Source: Brachycybe producta
Lineage: Eukaryota; Arthropoda; Diplopoda; Playtdesmida; Andrognathidae
DNA: 64,000 nucleotides
Direction: 5' to 3'
NCBI GenBank assembly: GCA_036925085.1
Contig: JAUPFP010000053.1
Span: 186,001 to 250,000, forward strand
Under the pieces are notes generated by a model. It was not told where the DNA came from. It worked only from the letters and a program-made list of their open reading frames with translations, and did not search any database. Positions 788 through 64,000 of the stretch are shown here, piece by piece (position 1 is the stretch's first letter; every line of letters starts with the position of its first letter). The position numbers and the translations under genes are program-made.

Positions 788-970
788 CATCAATTAGTTC
801 ATTTGCAATGAATTTTAGAATTTACAAATCCATGAGCAAGCTTAGACACTTCAATGACGCCCACTTTGAACTGGTGTAACTTTTGGAGCATGCAGTGCAC
901 ACTGGTATTGAAGACATCGCTGCATTCCTGATTGTACAAGGAATGCAATGCATCTAACAGCTCCATTCTA
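788..970 (+). repeat. Representative A1 monomer (183 bp)
   Basis: Defined by cutting after the CATTCTA-like junction. The 5' half starts ATCAATTAGTTCATTTGCAA, includes the HindIII-type AAGCTT and the phrase TTAGACACTTCAATGACGCC, and ends GAACTGGTGTAAC. The 3' half reads GACATCGCTGCATTCCTGAT and ends GCATCTAACAGCTCCATTCTA. In the array this tail is almost always followed by a B monomer, so the tail and the next monomer type are linked. Confidence 0.9.
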
Positions 971-1159
971 CAAAAATTAGTAAAAATTGTCAAAAAATGA
1001 CATTTTTTCATGAGTACCCATGTTGGAAGTTTTTCAAAAAACGGCAAAAAATGAAATAACTGGTGTAACTTTTGAAGCATGCAGTGCACACCGGAATTGA
1101 AGACCTCCCTGCATTTCTGAATGTCCTAGAAATGCAATGCATCTCACAGCTTCATTCTA
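971..1159 (+). repeat. Representative B monomer (189 bp) with phased A-tracts
   Basis: The 5' half is diverged from the A classes and rich in homopolymer tracts. A-runs begin at 972, 982 and 992, a T-run at 1003, a T-run at 1030, and A-runs at 1036 and 1046. The segment 992-1008 is AAAAAATGACATTTTTT, an inverted repeat with 8-bp arms round one base. Positions 1029-1042 form a second small dyad (GTTTTT, CA, AAAAAC). The 3' half is the shared core followed by GACCTCCCTGCATTTCTGAA and GTCCTAGAAATGCAATGCAT. That tail normally leads into A2. The B class lacks the AAGCTT site. Confidence 0.9.
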
Positions 1160-1342
1160 CATCCATTAGTTCATTTGAAACGATTTTTAGAACTTACAAA
1201 TCCATGAGCAAGCTTAGACCCTTCAATGATGCCCACTTTGAACTGTTGTATTTTTTGAAGCATGCAGTGCACACTGGAATTGAAGACATCACTGCATTCC
1301 TGATTGTCCAAAAAATGCAATGAAAATAACAGCTTCATTCTA
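1160..1342 (+). repeat. Representative A2 monomer (183 bp)
   Basis: Close relative of A1, distinguished by CATTAGTTCATTTGAAACGA, by TTAGACCCTTCAATGATGCC instead of TTAGACACTTC, and by TTGAACTGTTGTATTTTTTG. Its tail reads GACATCACTGCATTCCTGAT and ends GCAATGAAAATAACAGCTTC. This GAAAATAAC tail normally precedes A1, closing the A1-B-A2 cycle. Confidence 0.9.
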
Positions 1343-50471: not shown

Positions 50472-50615
50472 TAGGGTGGTCCCTTGATATATATGGTAAT
50501 TTTTAAATGCAAATATTTCATGTTCTGACCCCCCAGAATTGTTCTCCCAACCAAAAAAATAGTCTACATAAAAGTTTATAAATTTTAATTGATATTTAGA
50601 GGTAGCTCAATGAAT
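50472..50615 (+). repeat. Left terminal inverted repeat (144 bp, imperfect)
   Basis: Matches the right end in blocks: the outer 11 bp (TAGGGTGGTCC), a TCTGACCC-containing block near 50525, TTGTTCT near 50539, and an inner block at 50592-50615 that is identical to the right arm at 23 of 24 positions. Sequence between the blocks has diverged or differs in length. Confidence 0.85.
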
Positions 50616-50766
50616 TCAAAGTTTTCGTAATAGCGTAATCATTATGTATTCTCCTAAAATGTATATACCATTGTTTATCTAGTGTCACTAATATTGAAAT
50701 AATTAGAATGAACTATTTTATACACATAAGTTACAATTAAAACACAACAATGTAATTTATGCACAT

Positions 50767-50772
50767 TTTATT
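50767..50772 (-). promoter_or_regulatory. Candidate polyadenylation signal AATAAA
   Basis: On the minus strand AATAAA occurs 25 bases downstream of the last stop codon of the transposase frame (stop at 50797-50799). Position and motif fit a transposon 3' end, but an AT-rich context makes chance matches common. Confidence 0.4.
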
Positions 50773-50796
50773 AACATTGGACCAAACATGTAATGA

Positions 50797-52513
50797 CTAC
50801 AAAGTAGCTAATGTAGTCTTTTTGCAATCTGGATAACGACTAGAATGTTCTTTCACAACTTGAAGCAAATACTGTTTCTGATCTTCATTTTTTGTTAATA
50901 TTGGATTGTACTCTTTCATCAATGCCACACCTCTTTCAGCATTGTCATTCACAACTTGTAAATGTTTTATGATATCCTTAGCTTGCTTGTAGTCTTCTCG
51001 CAGATGCCATATCTTTGGATCATGTTCTAAGAACCTTTTGGAAATGCCAAGATGGTCAAATAAGTGCATTGAGTTCTTCGATACAAAGTCTTCTATTCTC
51101 ATATTAACGGAGCCACTGGCATTTTTGGATTCTCTTCAGAGGCTGATCTGCACCTTCCTTTTCATAAAGATATTTTAGCATTGCCTGTTTTGATTTGATT
51201 GGCACACTGTCATCAAAAAATGCCAATCCAACTAGTTCCTCACTTAAGTACCAAAAATGTCCCTCAAATTTCTTGCAAGTAACATTGGATATTGAAGGAT
51301 TGATTTTTTTATAATCTCTAAGCTTTTGCAGAAGCTGTTGATCATTGAAAACTGCAGTAATGGGAAGTGGGGCAGTGAACCAAGCCTTGATGTAGACATA
51401 AACAAGAAAGACACATATGTTGCATAGTCCTTTTTTTTCTCTTGCAGTGAGAGTAAACTGGTTACGAAACAGCCACATTTTTAGTGAGTATATTGCTTTG
51501 GACATTCATCTTGCATGATGTACAGCCCCAGGGGCTAAAAATCGCACACCTCGTGGTGGTGTACCTCCCAGAAAGATAATAGCTAATTCTAAACATTCTC
51601 TAATTATCTCTGATTTTAGTGTCAGTTTGTTGAAGCTGGTTAGTACAGAATTCAATGACACTGTCTTTTTCATCTTTCATCACAAGCTGTACAGTTTCAC
51701 TGCTGTCTAAAGACATGTAAGATGACTGATCTATTTTAACCCAGAATTGCGTGAATCGCTTGAATATGGTTACATCAGGGCCAGAAAAGGTACAACCCAT
51801 GGCTTCATTAAATGCACTAGCAAGAACAAGTTCTAAGATATGGTGACGGCATGAAAAGTACAGAAGATCCTTCTGCAATTTCTGCTCTAACAGAATACAA
51901 GTTCCATTTCTGTGACCTGTGTTGCTAAATGTGGTATCGAAGCACATAGCTTTCACTTGATCGACAACATCCCATTCTTTAAGGAAATCTGCAACAGCAG
52001 TTGCCTGACACCCCTAGTGCCTGCCTGCAACTTAGGCACACCTAGAAGCTGGTTAACACCTAAAACCTGAAACAATCACAGGAAGCCGACCTTTTTCTCT
52101 CTGTGCAAGTAGAAAATACTTGTCTTCTAGAATAGTAATCATTGTGAGGGCATCCTTATGAGCAATGTCAAATAAATTATCGAGGTCATCTTTAAACTGA
52201 CTCTCATGACTTTGCTGAACAGCACTTTTCCTATTACAATTTTTTTTCAGTTTGACCCACTTCTCATGAAGCTGTTCTGTCTTCTTAACACAATCCTGTT
52301 CATGTCTTACAGGAATCCAGGCTTTTTCCAAAAATACTGCAGCTTCTTTTACAGCACTACGGGAACTTTCACGGATTGTCTTTTTTAAGGTTCGGTGGTG
52401 ATAAAAAATACACTGAGCACTTGTTTATTAGAGGGTAACTTTGATCCCTTGATAGAGGTCTCTTCTGGCCCAATAAGCCATAAAGTATTGGTTTTTCTGG
52501 TTGCAGTAGCCAT
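50797..52513 (-). pseudogene. Broken transposase-like gene of the TIR transposon
   Basis: Reads on the minus strand from an ATG at 52511-52513 to a TAG at 50797-50799, about 570 codons if it were whole. Disruptions seen: a frameshift at the A-run 52403-52408 (stop follows at 52385-52387); a frameshift near 52062 with a stop at 52053-52055; a second shift near 52008-52016; a shift near 51600-51610; an in-frame TGA at 51506-51508 where similar proteins probably have Trp; and a shift at about 51122-51130. The open pieces are 52331-52053, 51956-51600, 51505-51104 and 51102-50797. The second piece has an Asp in CFDTT (codon 51936-51938) followed by a CRHH motif (51840-51851), reminiscent of the first catalytic Asp and the C-x2-H motif of RNase H-fold transposases. 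The third has WYLSEEL. I recall similar unnamed proteins in arthropods and cnidarians. No BED zinc finger and no typical hAT C-terminal dimerisation motif were recognised, so superfamily is unsure. Some one-base shifts at homopolymers could be assembly errors; the TGA is less easily explained that way. Confidence 0.8.
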
Positions 52514-52577
52514 AACTATTAATTTTTCACTTTACCTGCAATAAAAGAGAAAAATCATAAAAAATAAAGAATTTCAT

Positions 52578-52708
52578 ATTCATTGAGCTACCCCTAAATA
52601 TTGCTTGACTGTAATATAACTTTGCACAACATAATTTTATACATAATAGAACAACATGGGAGGGTCAGACAAAGACTTTTAAAAACTTAAAAAATAAGGA
52701 CCACCCTA
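52578..52708 (-). repeat. Right terminal inverted repeat (131 bp, imperfect)
   Basis: Reverse complement of the left arm in the same block order: outer TAGGGTGGTCC at the end, then GTCTGACCCTCCCA, TTGTTCT, and the inner 24-bp block at 52578-52601. The inner block contains GGTAGCTCAATGAAT. Its conservation above the surrounding sequence makes it a candidate transposase-binding site (inference). Confidence 0.85.
52635..52641 (-). promoter_or_regulatory. Candidate TATA box of the transposon
   Basis: TATAAAA on the minus strand lies about 122 bases upstream of the likely start codon, inside the right inverted repeat. It could be the promoter element for the transposase. The surroundings are AT-rich and no initiator was identified, so support is weak. 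Confidence 0.25.
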
Positions 52709-52716
52709 AGCTCCAT
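52709..52716. repeat. Right target-site duplication (AGCTCCAT)
   Basis: Perfect second copy of the octamer at 50464-50471. It is followed at once by TCTACAAAAATTAG, the normal start of a B monomer, so the satellite is resumed without loss. Confidence 0.93.
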
Positions 52717-55700
52717 TCTACAAAAATTAGTAAAAATTGTCAAAAAATGACATTTTTTCATAAGTACCCGTGTTGGATTTTTTCAAAAAACGGCAAAAAA
52801 TGAAATAACTGGTGTAACTTATGAAACATGCAGTGCACACCGGAATTGAAGACCTCCCTGCATTTCTGAATGTCCTAGAAATGCAATGCATCTAACAGCT
52901 TCATTCTACGTTCATTAGTTCATATGAAACGATTTTTAGAATTTACAAATCCATGAGCAAGCTTAGACCCTTCAATGACGCCCACTTTGAACTGGTGTAT
53001 TTTTTGAAGCATGCAGTGCACACTGGAATTGAAGACATCGCTGCATTCCTGATTGTACAAGGAATGCAATGCATCTAGCAGATCCATTCTACAAAAGTTA
53101 GTAAAATTTGTCAAAAAATGACATTTTTTCATGAGTACCCGTGTTGGAAGTTTTTCAAAAAACGGCAAAAAATAAAATAACTGGTTTAACTTTTGAAGCA
53201 TGCAGTGCACACCAAAATTGAAGACCTCCCTGCATTCCTGATTGTCCAAGGAATGCAATGCATCTAACAGCTTCATTCTACGTCCATTAGTTCGTTTGAA
53301 ACAATTTTTAGAATTTACAAATCCATGAGCAAGCTTAGACCCTTCAATGACGCCCACTTTGAACTGTTGTATTTTTTGAAGCATGCAGTGCACACTGGAA
53401 TTGAAGACCTCGCTGCATTCCTGATTGTACAAGAAATGCAATGCATCTAACAGCTCCATTCTAAAAAAAATTAGTAAAAATTGTCAAAAAATGAAATTTT
53501 TTCATGAGTACCCGTGTTGGAAGTTTTTCAAAAAACGGCAAAAAATGAAATAACTGGTGTAACTTTTGAAGCATGCAGTGCACACCAAAATTGAAGACCT
53601 CCCTGCATTCCTGATTGTCCAAGGAATGCAATGCATCTAACAGCTTCATTCTACGTCCATTAGTTCATTTGAAACGATTTTTAGAATTTACAAATCCATG
53701 AGCAAGCTTAGACCCTTCAATGACGCCCACTTTGAACTGTTGTATTTTTTGAAGCATGCAGTGCACACCGGAATTGAAGACCTCCCTGCATTTCTGAATG
53801 TCCTAGAAATGCAATGCATCTAACAGCTTCATTCTACGTTCATTAGTTCATATGAAACGATTTTTAGAATTTACAAATCCATGAGCAAGCTTAGACCCTT
53901 CAATGATGCCCACTTTTAACTGTTGTATTTTTTGAAGCATGCAGTGCACACTATAATTGAAGACATCGCTGCATTCCTGATTGTACAAGGAATGCAATGC
54001 ATCTAACAGCTCAATTCTACAAAAATTAGTAAAAATTGTCAAAAAATGACATTTTTTCATGAGTACCCGTGTTGGAAGTTTTTCAAAAAACGGCCAAAAA
54101 TGAAATAACTGGTGTAACTTTTGAAGCATGCAGTGCACACCAGAATTGAAGACCTCCCTGCATTCCTTATTGTCCAAGAAATGCAATGCATTTAACAGCT
54201 TCATCCTATGTCCATTAGTTCATTTGAAACGATTTTTAGAATTTACAAATCCATGAGCAATCTTAGACCCTTCAATGACGCCCACTTTGAACTGTTGTAT
54301 TTTTTGAAGCATGGAGTGCACACTGGAATTGAAGACATCGTTGCATTCCTGATTGTACAAGGAATGCAATGCATCTAATAGCTCAATTCTACAAAAATTA
54401 GTAAAAATTGTCAAAAAATGACATTTTTTCATGAGTACCCATGTTTGAAGTTTTTCAAAAAATGGCAAAAAATGAAATAACTGGTGTAACTTTTGAAGCA
54501 TGCAGTGCACACCAGAATTGAAGACCTCCCTGCATTTCTGAATGTCCTAGAAATGCAATGCATCTCACAGCTTCATTCTACGTCCATTAGTTCATTTGAA
54601 ACGATTTTTAGAACTTACAAATCCATGAGCAAGCTTAGACCCTTCAATGATGCCCACTTTGAACTGTTGTATTTTTTGAAGCATGCAGTGCACACTGGAA
54701 TTGAAGACATCACTGCATTCCTGATTGTCCAAAAAATGCAATGAAAATAACAGCTTCATTCTACATCAATTAGTTCATTTGCAATGAATTTTAGAATTTA
54801 CAAATCCATGAGCAAGCTTAGACACTTCAATGACGCCCACTTTGAACTGGTGTAACTTTTGAAGCATGCAGTGCACACTGGAATTGAAGACATCGCTGCA
54901 TTATTGATTGTACAAGGAATGCAATGCATCTAACAGCTCCATTCTACGAAAATTAGTAAAAATTGTCAAAAAATGACATTTTTTCATGAGTACCCATGTT
55001 GGAAGTTTTTCAAAAAACGGCAAAAAATGAAATAACTGGTGTAACTTTTGAAGCATGCAGTGCACACCACAATTGAAGACATCCCTGCATTCCTGATTGT
55101 CCAAGAAATGCAATGCATTTAACAGCTTCATTCTACGTCCATTAGTTCATTTGAAACGAATTTTAGAATTTACAAATCCATGAGCAAGCTTAGACCCTTC
55201 AATGACGCCCACTTTGAACTGTTGTATTTTGTGAAGCATGCAGTGCACACTGGAATTGAAGACATCACTGCATTCCTGATTGTCCAAAGATTGCAATGAA
55301 AATAACAGCTTCATTCTACATTAATTAGTTCATTTGCAATGAATTTTAGAATTTACAAATCCATGAGCAAGCTTAGACACTTCAATGATGCACACATTGA
55401 ACTGGTGTAACTTTTGAAGCATGCAGTGCACACTGGAATTGAAGACATCGCTGCATTCCTTATTGTACAAGGAATGCAATGCATTTAACAGCTTCATCCT
55501 ATGTCCATTAGTTCATTTGAAACGATTTTTAGAATTTACAAATCCATGAGCAAGCTTAGACCCTTCAATGACGCCCACTTTGAACTGTTGTATTTTTTGA
55601 AGCATGGAGTGCACACTGGAATTGAAGACATCGTTGCATTCCTGATTGTACAAGGAATGCAATGCATCTAATAGCTCAATTCTACAAAAATTAGTAAAAA

Positions 55701-57500
55701 TTGTCAAAAAATGACATTTTTTCATGAGTACCCATGTTTGAAGTTTTTCAAAAAATGGCAAAAAATGAAATAACTGGTGTAACTTTTGAAGCATGCAGTG
55801 CACACCAGAATTGAAGACCTCCCTGCATTTCTGAATGTCCTAGAAATGCAATGCATCTCACAGCTTCATTCTACGTCCATTAGTTCATTTGAAATGATTT
55901 TTAGAACTTACAAATCCATGAGCAAGCTTAGACCCTTCAATGATGCCCACTTTGAACTGTTGTATTTTTTGAAGCATGCAGTGCACACTGGAATTGAAGA
56001 CATCACTGCATTCCTGATTGTCCAAAAAATGCAATGAAAATAACAGCTTCATTCTACATCAATTAGTTCATTTGCAATGAATTTTAGAATTTACAAATCC
56101 ATGAGCAAGCTTAGACACTTCAATGACGCCCACTTTGAACTGGTGTAACTTTTGAAGCATGCAGTGCACACTGGAATTGAAGACATCGCTGCATTATTGA
56201 TTGTACAAGGAATGCAATGCATCTAACAGCTCCATTCTACGAAAATTAGTAAATTTGTCAAAAAATGACATTTTTTCATGAGTACCCATGTTGGAAGTTT
56301 TTCAAAAAACGGCCAAAAATGAAATAACTGGTGTAACTTTTGAAGCATGCAGTGCACACCACAATTGAAGACCTCCCTGCATTCCTGATTGTCCAAGAAA
56401 TGCAATGCATTTAACAGCTTCATCCTACGTCCATTAGTTCATTTGAAACGAATTTTAGAATTTACAAATCCATGAGCAAGCTTAGACCCTTCAATGACGC
56501 CCACTTTGAACTGTTCTATTTTTTGAAGCATGCAGTGCACACTGGAATTGAAGACATCACTGCATTCCTGATTGTCCAAAGCTTGCAATGAAAATAACAG
56601 CTTCATTCTACATTAATTAGTTCATTTGCAATGAATTTTAGAATTTACAAATCCATGAGCAAGCTTAGACACTTCAATGACGCACACATTGAACTGGTGT
56701 AACTTTTGAAGCATGCAGTGCACACTGGAATTGAAGACATTGCTGCATTCCTGATTGTACAAGGAACGCAATGCATCTAACAGCTCCATTCTACAAAAGT
56801 TAGTAAAATTTGTCAAAAAATGACATTTTTTTATGAGTACCCGTGTTGGATTTTTTCAAAAAACGGCAAAAAATGAAATAACTGGTGTAACTTATGAAAC
56901 ATGCAGTGCACACTGGAATTGAAGACCTCTCTGCATTTCTGAATGTCCTAGAAATGCAATGCATCTAACAGCTTCATTCTACGTCCATTAGTTCATTTGA
57001 AACGATTTTTAGAATTTACAGATCCATGAGCAAGCTTAGACCCTTCAATGACGCCCACTTTGAACTGTTGTATTTTTTGAAGCATGGAGTGCACACTGGA
57101 ATTAAAGACATCGCTGCATTCCTGATTGTACAAGGAATGCAATGCATCTAACAGCTCCATTCTACAAATATTAGTAAAAATTGTCAAAAAATGACATTTT
57201 TTCATGAGTACCCCGTTGGAAGTTTTTCAAAAAACGGCAAAAAATGAAATAACTTCTCTAACTTTTGAAGCATGCAGTGCACACCGGAATTGAAGACCTC
57301 CCTGCATTTCTGAATGTCCTAGAAATGCAATGCATCTAACAGCTTCATTCTATGTCCATTAGTTCATTTGAAACGATTTTTAGAATTTACAAATCCATGA
57401 GCAAGCTTAGACCCTTCAATGACGCCCACTTTGAACTGTTTTATTTTTTGAAGCATGCAGTGCACACTGGAATTGAAGACATCACTGCATTCCTGATTGT
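52717..57500. repeat. Array domain 10: 1293-bp block copies
   Basis: 54220-55512 and 55513 to about 56210 are block copies shifted by 1293 bp, about 7 monomers. Shared variants include GACATCGTTGCATTCC, CACACCAGAATTGAAG and CATCTCACAGC. Around 56.6-57.4 kb the sequence repeats variants of domain 9 (GTTAGTAAAATTTGTC, TTACAGATCCATGAGC, GTACCCCGTTGG) on the other side of the transposon, showing that the two arms share ancestry by block copying. Only satellite is present. Confidence 0.86.
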
Positions 57501-60500
57501 CCAAAGAACGCAATGAAAATAAAAGCTTCATTCTACATCAATTAGTTCATTTGCAATGAATTTTAGAATTTACAAATCCATGAGCAAGCTTAGACACTTC
57601 AATGACGCCCACTTTGAACTGGTGTAACTTTTGAAGCATGCAGTGCACACTGGAATTGAAGACATCGCTGCATTCCTGATTGTACAAGGAATGCAATGCA
57701 TCTAACAGCTACATTCTACAAAAATTAGTAAAAATTGTAAAAAAATGGCATTTTTTCATGAGTACCCATGTTGGAAGTTTTTCAAAAAACGGCCAAAAAT
57801 GAAATAACTGGTGTAACTTTTGAAGCATGCAGTGCACACCAGAATTGAAGACCTCCCTGCATTTCTGAATGTCCTAGAAATGCAATGCATCTAACAGCTT
57901 CATTCTACGTCCATTAGTTCATTTGAAACGATTTTTAGAATTTACAAATCCATGAGCAAGCTTAGACCCTTCAATGACGCCCACTTTGAACTGTTGTATT
58001 TTTTGAAGCATGCAGTGCACACTGGAATTGAAGATATCACTGCATTCCTGATTGTCCAAAGAACGCAATGAAAATAACACCTTCATTCTACATCAATTAG
58101 TTCATTTGCAATGAATTTTAGAATTTACAAATCCATGAGCAAGCTTAGACACTTCAATGACGCCCACTTTGAACTGGTGTAACTTTTGAAGCATGCAGTG
58201 CACACCGGAATTGAAGACCTCCCTGCATTTCTGAATGTCCTAGAAATGCAATGCATCTAACAGCTTCATTCTACGTCCATTAGTTCATTTGAAACGATTT
58301 TTAGAATTTACAAATCCATGAGCAAGCTTAGACCCTTCAATGATGCCCACTTTGAACTGTTGTATTTTTTGAAGCATGCAGTGCACACTGGAATTGAAGA
58401 CATCACTGCATTCCTGATTGTCCAAAGAACGCAATGAAAATAACACCTTCATTCTACATCAATTAGTTCATTTGCAATGAATTTTAGAATTTACAAATCC
58501 ATGAGCAAGCTTAGACACTTCAATGACGCCCACTTTGAACTGGTGTAACTTTTGAAGCATGCAGTGCACACCGGAATTGAAGACCTCCCTGCATTTCTGA
58601 ATGTCCTAGAAATGCAATGCATCTAACAGCTTCATTCTACGTCCATTAGTTCATTTGAAACGATTTTTAGAATTTACAAATCCATGAGCAAGCTTAGACC
58701 CTTCAATGACGCCCAATTTGAACTGGTGTATTTTTTGAAGCATGGAGTGCACACTGGAATTAAAGACATCGCTGCATTCCTGATTGTACAAGTAATGCAA
58801 TGCATCTAACAGCTCCATTCTACAAATATTAGTAAAAATTGTCAAAAAATGACATTTTTTCATGAGTACCCCGTTGGAAGTTTTTCAAAAAACGGCAAAA
58901 AATGAAATACCTTCTCTAACTTTTGAAGCATGCAGTGCACACCGGAATTGAAGACCTCCCTGCATTTCTGAATGTCCTAGAAATGCAATGCATCTAACAG
59001 CTTCATTCTATGTCCATTAGTTCATTTGAAACGATTTTTAGAATTTACAAATCCATGAGCAAGCTTAGACCCTTCAATGACGCCCACTTTGAACTGTTGT
59101 ATTTGTTGAAGCATGCAGTGCACACTGGAATTGAAGACATCAATGCATTCCTGATTGTCCAAAGAACGCAATGAAAATAAAAGCTTCATTCTACATCAAT
59201 TAGTTCATTTGCAATGAATTTTAGAATTTACAAATCCATGAGCAAGCTTAGACACTTCAATGACGCCCACTTTGAACTGGTGTAACTTTTGAAGCATGCA
59301 GTGCACACTGGAATTGAAGACATCGCTGCATTCCTGATTGTACAAGGAATGCAATGCATCTAACAGCTACATTCTACAAAAATTAGTAAAAATTGTGAAA
59401 AAATGGCATTTTTTCTTGAGTACCCATGTTGGAAGTTTTTCAAAAAACGGCCAAAAATGAAATAACTGGTGTAACTTTTGAAGCATGCAGTGCACACCAG
59501 AATTGAAGACCTCCCTGCATTTCTGAATGTCCTAGAAATGCAATGCATCTAACAGCTTCATTCTACGTCCATTAGTTCATTTGAAACGATTTTTAAAATT
59601 TACAAATCCATGAGCAAGCTTAGACCCTTCAATGACGCCCACTTTGAACTGTTGTATTTTTTGAAGCATGCAGTGCACACTGGAATTGAAGACATCACTG
59701 CATTCCTGATTGTCCAAAAAATGCAATGAAAATAAGAGCTTCATTCTACATCAATTAGTTCATTTGCAATGAATTTTAGAATTTACAAATCCATGAGCAA
59801 GCTTAGACACTTCAATGACGCCCACTTTGATCTGGTGTAACTTTTGAAGCATGCAGTGCACACTGGAATTGAAGACATCGCTGCATTCCTCATTGTACAA
59901 GGAATGCAATGTATCTAACAGCTCCATTCTACAAAATTAGTAAAAATTGTCAAAAAATGACATTTTTTCATGAGTACCCATGTTGGAAGTTTTTCAAAAA
60001 ATGGCAAAAAATGAAATAACTTCTGTAACTTTTGAAGCATGCAGTGCACACCGTAATTGAAGACCTCCCTGCATTTCTGAATGTCCTAGAAATGCAATGC
60101 ATTTAACAGCTTCATTCTACGTTCATTAGTTCATTTGAAACGATTTTTAGAATTCACAAATCCATGAGCAAGCTTAGACCCTTCAATGATGCCCACTTTG
60201 AACTGTTGTATTTTTGAAGCATGCAGTGCACACTGGAATTGAAGACATCACTGCATTCCAGATTGTCCAAAGAACGCAAAGAAAATAACACCTTCATTCT
60301 ACATCAATTAGTTCATTTGCAATGAATTTTAGAATTTACAAATCCATGAGCAAGCTTAGACACTTCAATGACGCCCACTTTGAACTGGTGTAACTTTTGA
60401 AGCATGCAGTGCACACCGGAATTGAAGACCTCCCTGCATTTCTGAATGTCCTAGAAATGCAATGCATCTAACAGCTTCATTCTACATCCATTAGTTCATT

Positions 60501-63500
60501 TGAAACGATTTTTAGAATTTACAAATCCATGAGCATGCTTAGACACTTCAATGATGCCCACTTTGAACTGGTGTATTTTTTGAAGCATGCAGTGCACACT
60601 GGAATTTAAGACATCACTGCATTCCTGTTTGTACAAGGAATGCAATGCATCTAACAGCTCCTTTCTACAAAAGTTAGTAAAATTTGTCAAAAAAAGACAT
60701 TTTTTCATGAGTACCTGTGTTGGATTTTTTCAAAAAACGGCAAAAAATGAAATAACTGGTGTAACTTATGAAACATGCAGTGCACACCGGAATTGAAGAC
60801 CTCCCTGCATTTCTGAATGTCCTAGGAATGCAATGCATCTAACAGCTTCATTCTACGTCCATTAGATCATTTGAAACAATTTTTAGAATTTACAAATTCA
60901 TGAGCAAGCTTAGACCCTTCAATGACGCCCACTTTGAACTGTTGTATTTTTTGAAGCATGCAGTGCACACTGGAATTGAAGACATCGCTGCATTCCTGAT
61001 TGTACAAGAAATGCAATGCATCTAACAGCTCCATTCTACAAAAATTAGTAAAAATTGTCAAAAAATGACATTTTTTCATGAGTACCCCATGTTGGAAGTT
61101 TTTCAAAAAACGGCAAAAAATGAAATAACTTCTGTAACTTTTGAAGCATGCAGTGCACACCGGAATTGAAGACCTCCCTGCATTTCTGAATGTCCTAGAA
61201 ATGCAATGCATCTAACAGCTTCATTCTACGTCCATTAGTTCATTTGAAACAATTTTTAGAATTTACAAATCCATGAGCATGCTTAGACACTTCAATGATG
61301 CCCACTTTGAACTGGTGTATTTTTTGAAGCATGCAGTGCACACTGGAATTGAAGACATCGCTGCATTCCTGATTGTACAAGGAATGCAATGCATCTAACA
61401 GCTCCATTCTACAAAAGTTAGTAAAAATTGTCAAAAAATGACATTTTTTCATGAGTACACATGTTGGAAGTTTTTCAAAAAACGGCAAAAAATGAAATAA
61501 CTTCTGTAACTTTTGAAGCATGCAGTGCACACCGGAATTGAAGACCTCCCTGCATTTCTGAATGTCATATTAAAGCAATGCATCTAACAGCTTCATTCTA
61601 TGTCCATTAGTTCATTTGCAATGAATTTTAGAATTTACAAATCCATGAACAAGCTTAGACCCTTCAATGACGCCCACTTTGAACTGTTGTATTCTTTGAA
61701 GCATGCAGTGCATACTGGAATTGAAGAAATCACTGCATTCCTGATTGTCCAAAGAATGCAATGAAAATAACAGCTTCATTCTACATCAATTAGTTCATTT
61801 GCAATGAATTTTAGAATTTACAAATCCATGAGCAAGCTTAGACACTTCAATGACGCCCACTTTGAACTGGTGTAACTTTTGAAGCATGCAGTGCACACTG
61901 GAATTGAAGACATCGCTGCATTCCTGATTGTACAAGGAATGCAACGCATCTAACAGCTCCATTCTACAAAAGTTAGTAAAAATTGTCAAAAAATGACATT
62001 TTTTCATGAGTACACATGTTGGAAGTTTTTCAAAAAACGGCAAAAAATAAAATAACTGGTTTAACTTTTGAAGCATGCAGTGCACACCGGAATTGAAGAC
62101 CTCCCTGCATTCCTGATTGTCCAAGAAATGCAATGCATCTAACAGCTTCATTCTACGTCCATTAGTTCATTTGAAACGATTTTTAGAATTTACAAATCCA
62201 TGAGCAAGCTTAGACCCTTCAATGACGCCCAATTTGAACTGGTGTATTTTTTGAAGCATGCAGTGCACACTGGAATTCAAGACATCGCTGCATTCCTGAT
62301 TGTACAAGGAATGCAATGCATCTAACAGCTCCATTCTACAAAAGTTAGTAAAATTTATCAAAAAATGACATTTTTTTATGAGTACCCGTGTTGGATTTTT
62401 TCAAAAAACGGCAAAAAATGAAATAACTGGTGTAACTTATGAAACATGCAGTGCACACCGGAATTGAAGACCTCCCTGCATTTCTGAATGTCCTAGAAAT
62501 GCAATGCATCTAACAGCTTCATTCTACGTCCATTAGTTCATTTGAAACAATTTTTAGAATTTACAAATCCATGAGCAAGTTTAGACCCTTCAATGACGCC
62601 CACTTTGAACTGTTGTATTTTTTGAAGCATGCAATGCACACTGGAATTGAAGACATCGCTGCATTCCTGATTGTACAAGGAATGCAATGCATCTAACAGC
62701 TCCATTCTACAAATATTAGTAAAAATTGTCAAAAAATGACATTTTTTCATGAGTACCCCATGTTGGAAGTTTTTCAAAAAACGGCAAAAAATGAAATAAC
62801 TTCTGTAACTTTTGAAGCATGCAGTGCACACCGGAATTGAAGACCTCCCTGCATTTCTGAATGTCCTAGAAATGCAATGCATCTAACAGCTTCATTCTAC
62901 GTCCATTAGTTCATTTGAAACGATTTTTAGAATTTACAAATCCATGAGCAAGCTTAGACCCTTCAATGACGCCCACTTTGAACTGTTTTTTTTTTTAAGC
63001 ATGCAGTGCACACTGGAATTGAAGACATCACTGCATTCCTGATTGTACAAGGAATGCAATGCATCTAACAGCTCCTTTCTACAAAAGTTAGTAAAATTTG
63101 TCAAAAAAAAACATTTTTTCATGAGTACCCGTGTTGGATTTTTTCAAAAAACGGCAAAAAAATGAAATAACTGGTGTAACTTATGAAACATGCAGTGCAC
63201 ACCGGAATTGAAGACCTCCCTGCATTTCTGAATGTCCTAGGAATGCAATGCATCTAACAGCTTCATTCTATGTCCATTAGATCATTTGAAACAATTTTTA
63301 GAATTTAAAAATTCATGAGCAAGATTAGACCCTTCAATGATGCCCACTTTGAACTGTTGTATTTTTTGAAGCATGCAGTGCACACTTGAATTGATGACAT
63401 CGCTGCATTCCTGATTGTACAAGGAATGCAACGCATCTAACAGCTCCATTCTACGAAAGTTAGTAAAAATTGTCAAAAAATGACATTTTTTCATGAGTAC

Positions 63501-64000
63501 ACATGTTGGAAGTTTTTCAAAAAACGGCAAAAAATGAAATAACTTCTGTAACTTTTGAAGCATGCAGTGCACACCGGAATTGAAGACCTCCCTGCATTTC
63601 TGAATGTCATATTAAAGCAATGCATCTAACAGCTTCATTCTATGTCCATTAGTTCATTTGAAACGATTTTTAGAATTTACAAATCCATGAGCAAGCTTAG
63701 ACCCTTCAATGATGCCCACTTTGAACTGTTGTATTTTTTGAAGCATGCAGTGCACACTGGAATTAAAGACATCGCTGCATTCCTGATTGTGCAAGGAATA
63801 CAATGCATCTAACAGCTCCATTCTACAAAAGTTAGTAAAATTTGTCAAAAAATGACATTTTTTCATGAGTACCCATGTTGGAAGTTTTTCAAAAAACGGC
63901 AAAAAATGAAATAACTGGTGTAACTTTTGAAACATGCAGTGCACACCGGAATTGAAGACATCACTGCATTCCTGATTGTCCAAAGAACGCAATGAAAATA
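57501..64000. repeat. Array domain 11: diverged satellite with B-less dimers
   Basis: Monomers here differ from each other more than in most of the left arm. Examples are the AAACTGTTTTTTTTTTTAAGC-like T-run near 62985, GAAAATAACACC and GAAAATAAAAGC tails, and several B monomers with GTTAGTAAAATTTGTC. A1-A2 dimers without B occur near 58.1-58.8 and 60.3 kb. Only satellite is present, and the array continues past the window end. Confidence 0.85.
58091..58456 (+). repeat. A1-A2 dimer lacking B (366 bp)
   Basis: A1 (58091-58273) passes directly into A2 (58274-58456). The A1 has its own 5' half but a B-type tail (GACCTCCCTGCATTTCTGAA), so the B 5' half has been lost by exchange in the shared core. 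The next unit starts exactly 366 bp later with the same rare AACACCTTCATTC junction, and a third example lies near 60.3 kb. Confidence 0.87.

Follow-up and report, generated by a model that had tools for sequence, protein, structure and literature searches.

A satellite of one shared segment and two alternative blocks, with unit order probably shaped by homology-limited unequal exchange

Results and Discussion

The window analysed here, a stretch of 64,000 nucleotides (C53:186001-250000, in an assembly of 295.3 Mb and 442 contigs), lies in a two-block satellite, the order of whose units was very probably shaped by homology-limited unequal exchange and by the duplication of runs of units, and would need no function. 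Each unit combines a shared segment of ~114 bp with either the 75-bp block B or the 69-bp block A, which has subtypes x and y. The array would grow and shrink through unequal exchange and duplication of unit runs, with exchange occurring mostly between fully matching units, A with A and B with B. One shared segment combined with two unrelated blocks provides a clean case for testing whether homology alone has shaped unit order, and the array illustrates that a satellite can look coded when the cut point falls inside a linked unit.

Array layout and unit classes

Tandem Repeats Finder covered the window with periods of 183 and 372. A 48-base landmark occurred at 333 places, and 331 of the 332 spacings measured 177-191 bp (193 of them 183 bp and 81 of them 189 bp); the sole outlying spacing, of 2433 bp, held an insertion. 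Units ran in the same direction throughout positions 1-50471 on the forward strand (182-191 bp, with one of 177 bp), and the forward-strand array resumed beyond the insertion at 52709-64000, as placed by landmark spacings and the insertion boundaries. The landmark intervals across 255 kb measured 150-230 bp with three exceptions (1270 of 1273), all in a single orientation, giving the long head-to-tail array of similar units that characterizes satellite DNA. Reverse-strand units inside the array were rejected, as the two matches lay exactly at the threshold (20 mismatches in 48) and were taken as chance.

The sequence-only reading had described an A1-B-A2 trimer at 788-1342, and this trimer was recovered (183 + 189 + 183 = 555 bp). 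Read directly on the forward strand, monomer A1 (788-970, 183 bp) has a y-type head and a B-type tail and ends in GCATCTAACAGCTCCATTCTA; monomer B (971-1159, 189 bp) has a B head and an x-type tail, with GTCCTAGAAATGC near its end; and monomer A2 (1160-1342, 183 bp) has an x-type head and a y-type tail and ends in GAAAATAACAGCTTCATTCTA.

For clustering, units were cut at GAACTGG, yielding 331 units in the window. The top split, at a distance of 0.458, separated 126 units of 187-191 bp (B) from 205 units of 177-184 bp (A), and the A class split again at 0.134 into 114 x and 91 y units, indicating separate classes rather than one continuous monomer class. The description of this DNA as a multi-class higher-order repeat (HOR) was therefore upheld, with three clean classes in non-random order. 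The shared segment of B was identical to that of x and to that of y at 86 of 96 positions each, and x was identical to y at 81 of 96; the heads of x and y agreed at 81 of 87. The core GCATGCAGTGCACAC, exemplified at 888-902 on the forward strand, was common to the three unit classes, and it is the place where two LTR elements lie inserted in units beyond the window.

The first 18 bases of the head were common to B and A units. Past base 18, the resemblance between B and A heads was at chance level, with scores as high in 60.8% and 83.1% of 1000 shuffles, and the B block likewise showed no match to the reverse-complemented A block beyond that of shuffles. The earlier wording of "widely diverged 5' halves" was not sustained, as the heads past base 18 showed no likeness beyond that of shuffles. 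From these sequence comparisons, B is best seen as a unit in which a 75-bp block stands in exchange for the 69-bp A block, as at 982-1056 on the forward strand; block replacement and divergence beyond recognition would both fit the B and A heads, which do not distinguish between them. The B block was rejected both as an inverted or shifted A block and as a piece of the inserted elements, since the similarity was within the range of shuffles in each case; the best match, to LTR element 1 in the forward direction, was equalled by 8.3% of 60 shuffles.

Order of the units

Type-to-type steps were non-random, as had been proposed: the cycle y>B>x>y accounted for 238 of 327 steps in the window, compared with 108.6 (sd 8.7, maximum 136) in 2000 shuffles. 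Words starting at B were mixed, comprising 46 Bxy, 37 Bx, 21 By and 22 others among the 126 in the window, and 199 Bx, 98 Bxy, 70 By and 117 others among the 484 in the 255 kb. Exact B-x-y words followed by B held 135 of 331 units in the window and 288 of 1270 in the 255 kb. The claim of a fixed three-part code did not withstand these counts, in which Bxy was a minority at either scale.

The best local repeat lag shifted along the array (3, 5, 6, 10, 15 and 21 units, among others), ranging from 2 to more than 50 units, with a mean identity at the local lag of 0.83-0.96. The array is a higher-order repeat in that its class order was non-random and multi-unit copies were more alike than neighbouring units; it was not built of one fixed multi-unit block, as the lag varied and the words were mixed. 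A local B-x-x trimer with a lag of 3 and a mean identity of 0.906 was observed at C53:95051-105 kb. At C53 ~265-320 kb, local periods of 545, 1100 and 362 replaced those of 555 and 372, and units of 179 bp (55 in the 255 kb) were among the local variants.

Over the 255 kb, the distance from one B unit to the next was 2-4 units in 464 of 483 cases. They rarely adjoined one another, with 5 B-B neighbours seen among the 483 spacings versus 184.5 expected at random, and A-A neighbours numbered 302. Unit counts are not independent events; grouping the junctions by similarity gave, depending on the cut-off, 5, 3 or 1 groups of B-B junctions and 72, 30 or 13 groups of A-A junctions.

Unequal exchange as the source of the order

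Because local repeats span from 3 to tens of units, we infer that unequal exchange and the duplication of unit runs have been at work. Exchange of like with like would let the A units between successive B units vary in number (usually one to three) and would make B-B meetings rare, and we infer, with backing from simulations, that it is the cause of the B-B rarity. These simulations were started from Bxy arrays, with 200 runs per setting. Without a homology rule, a B-B share as low as that observed was reached in 0 of 200 runs; when exchange was permitted only between like blocks it was reached in 200 of 200, and allowing this rule a 2% leak lowered the number to 133 of 200. An earlier, simpler simulation without the homology rule produced a B fraction of 0.30-0.46 in 61 of 300 runs; in these, the B-B share went no lower than 0.21, compared with 0.016 observed. 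The homology-limited simulation failed on word frequencies, giving Bx a frequency of 0.01 or less although Bx was the commonest word observed in the 255 kb; its common short word was By. Under this model, homology-limited exchange would explain the spacing rule of B and not the word frequencies.

The B block as a possible selected element

The strongest competing explanation, which we nevertheless consider unlikely, is that the B block is a selected element, such as a centromere-protein binding site, and that selection spaces the B blocks 2-4 units apart. The model for such an arrangement is the CENP-B box, NTTCGNNNNANNCGGGN, which sits in every second alphoid monomer. The B block would by analogy be an independently evolved, palindromic and A/T-rich cis element, a counterpart of the CENP-B box without its sequence, which seems to us improbable; we are similarly doubtful that a DNA-binding protein of centromeric chromatin would need a spacing of 2-4 units on more than one chromosome. 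The scarcity of B-B neighbours (5 of 483 spacings) would be expected of a selected spacing, but simulated homology-limited exchange yielded the B spacing without selection. The B block contains a 17-bp palindrome, AAAAAATG-A-CATTTTTT, at 992-1008 by direct reading, and in similarity to its own reverse complement it exceeds 199 of 200 shuffles. The predicted fold of the B head was ordinary, however (z -1.15), and a cruciform-like fold was rejected on this value. The block also occurs on a second contig, C5, as another sequence variant, with no spacing below 555 bp among the 54 intervals listed, these spacings being upper bounds because the C5 list covers one B variant only.

A CENP-B box was not found above chance in any of the three classes: the best match in each was 6 of 9 core bases, a score that 404 of 500 shuffled B sequences also attained, and a CENP-B-box satellite of the alphoid type was rejected accordingly. 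Conservation was fairly even along the units, and the B block as a whole was not better conserved than the rest of the unit (decamers 0.88-0.99). Given the lack of a CENP-B box, the even conservation and the ordinary fold, we regard the unit order as a by-product of exchange. If the B spacing were selected, it would represent a rare spaced box outside CENP-B systems.

Tail and head as one inherited unit

Tails and heads were typed separately for linkage scoring. Of the window's units, 330 could be scored (one more was unscored), and 324 of these had a tail of the same type as the head after it; tail and next head shared 1.44 of 1.57 bits of mutual information; the link between a head and its own monomer's tail was looser (0.705 versus 1.443 bits). 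Over the 255 kb, the tail equalled the next head in 1146 of 1247 scorable units. The 101 units that broke the rule were lopsided, with 63 joining a B tail to an A head, 5 joining an A tail to a B head and 33 mismatched between x and y; a B tail with an x head was found in 52 units in the 255 kb. The imbalance of 63 versus 5 is not explained by plain reciprocal exchange.

Linkage between neighbouring variable columns was scanned in the window at every possible cut point. The weakest linkage, 0.37, fell in the shared half at unit position 48, a minimum based on few variable columns (5 on the left and 12 on the right). At the CATTCTA cut (positions 96-102) linkage was 0.69-0.77, and within the head block it rose to 0.97-0.99; over the first 30 bases of the unit it was 0.57-0.70, little below the value at the CATTCTA cut. 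A tail and the head after it form a single inherited unit, whose natural span is from AACTGG to the next AACTGG. A tail "predicts" the next head because the CATTCTA cut falls inside this linked unit; the rule is not a signal read by something, and it holds at any cut within the linked unit. The proposal that tails predict the next monomer was thus correct as a regularity, and a special meaning of the tail was not supported.

A fixed A1-B-A2 trimer, with each tail dictating which monomer follows, is a highly improbable description of the array. The trimer exists at 788-1342, Bxy leads among the window's words (46 of 126), and cycle steps account for 238 of 327 there, but words other than Bxy make up 80 of 126 in the window and 386 of 484 in the 255 kb, which refutes a fixed trimer, and the tail rule, valid wherever the linked unit is cut, is no separate property. 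An assembly artefact, with repeat order scrambled or collapsed, is the least credible explanation: near-identical long copies are open to misjoining, but the 255 kb show regular unit lengths and junctions (150-230 bp in 1270 of 1273 intervals), inserted elements keep intact target duplications, and C5 shows the same classes with its own variant.

Elements inserted in the array

A DNA-transposon-like insertion, not satellite, occupied 50472-52708 of the window on the minus strand, the strand being taken from its open frames. It carried 11-bp terminal inverted repeats (TAGGGTGGTCC) and an 8-bp target duplication (AGCTCCAT), by which we take it to be hAT-like. Its four open frames (92-133 aa) matched no Pfam family above the cut-off.

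Two LTR retroelements of the same family lay in opposite orientations, element 1, with a gag containing a CCHC knuckle, at C53:113268-122847 and element 2 at C53:325435-333210. Both were found at the identical base of the satellite core, GAAGCATG[CAGT]GCACAC, with CAGT duplicated (two of two elements in the 255 kb). Two independent insertions would fall on one base by chance about once in 185. The LTR pair within each element was 99.855% alike over 688 aligned bases, indicating that both elements are young. The CAGT-preceded LTR end occurred in one direction at 2 places genome-wide, both on C53 (113264 and 412224), and in the other direction at 8 exact places, two of them on C53 (325431 and 368363); the same-direction pairs on C53 may be copies of one event. 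The family was rejected as satellite-specific, as 817 LTR ends with at most one mismatch were counted genome-wide and the first 100 listed lay on C1-C3.

Genome distribution

The exact core pattern matched 2305 times on the plus strand and 553 times on the minus strand genome-wide; among the first 100 matches listed, 1 was on C4, 79 on C5, 4 on C10 and 16 on C12. The A block, with up to two mismatches, matched 4005 times on the plus and 2409 times on the minus strand (C5, C12, C17 and C53 among the matches listed), and the B block, with up to three mismatches, 2002 and 798 times (C53 and C5 among the matches listed). Exact B-block matches numbered 460, with 99 of the 100 listed on C53 and 1 on C5; a B block private to C53 was rejected, as mismatched copies occur on C5, where the variant has GTGCCC in place of GTACCC. 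On C53, B blocks extended from base 518 to at least 545306. Exact core matches on C5 ran from 1474 to 190299, and A-block matches there began at 353. When the counts were scaled to how many of the units in the 255 kb each pattern recovers, the genome total came roughly to ~5100 units by the core and 10300 by A + B, which amounts to 0.9-1.9 Mb and 0.3-0.65% of the genome.

Both blocks were present on more than one contig, and two contigs (C53 and C5) start inside the satellite, as is usual for (peri)centromeric arrays. From the several contigs and the two that begin in satellite, we consider (peri)centromeric heterochromatin the rather likely, candidate position of the arrays.

Comparison with published satellites

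The satellite was not found in print in a literature search of open-access text. By analogy, TCAST1 of Tribolium castaneum is a close published precedent. The passages on TCAST1 in PMC3411249 describe Tcast1a and Tcast1b as similar in length, sharing most of the unit, differing by a subfamily-specific region of ~100 bp and interspersed with each other in pericentromeric arrays; the units measure 362 and 377 bp, are 79% alike and make up 35% of the genome. The present satellite likewise has two interspersed subfamilies and a subfamily-specific block, a likeness of layout, whereas its units are 183 and 189 bp and it makes up ~0.3-0.65% of the genome.

For Meloidogyne chitwoodi and M. fallax, the relevant passages of PMC3694981 describe HORs whose monomers are related to each other only in short conserved boxes, with monomer junctions in the boxes and long and short HOR variants coexisting. 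The present array resembles them as a HOR of monomers unrelated outside shared parts. It differs in that their conserved box, as described there, includes a CENP-B-box-like motif, whereas none was found above chance here, and in that their boxes are short, whereas the shared segment here exceeds half of the unit.

Primate alpha satellite, as outlined in parts of PMC8122249, forms alternating dimers with a box in one unit type only and chromosome-specific HORs. It is similar in its two alternating unit types of ~170-190 bp, one with a particular box; in contrast, the present array has no CENP-B box above chance, an entire unrelated block distinguishes its B units from its A units, and its HOR length varies along the array. 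The same parts of that source describe monomers together with dimer and trimer HORs of one ~211 bp unit in Chrysolina carnifex, which is likened to the present array by unit organisation alone. By these analogies, the array is a further satellite of an already published kind (two-subfamily satellites, boxed HORs and alphoid dimers).

Mitochondrial contig

Contig C442 was a mitochondrial contig of 15359 bp with 18.8% G+C that reads with the invertebrate code, its gene names being assigned by reading open frames. The contig was rearranged, with ND1 on the minus strand near COX1 and with ND4L, ND4 and ND5 on the strand of COX1. It kept the tRNA runs A-R-N-S-E and K-D, which we take to be the arthropod ground pattern, and the invertebrate code together with these runs indicated that the genome is arthropod-like. 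A Strigamia centipede was rejected as the source, since PMC4368715 reports its trnF-nad5-trnH-nad4-nad4L block to be on the minus strand, and thrips were rejected because the mitochondrial gene blocks reported for them in PMC6971079 are unlike those of C442. COX1-like stretches were also observed on C1 and C17 and are probably nuclear copies.
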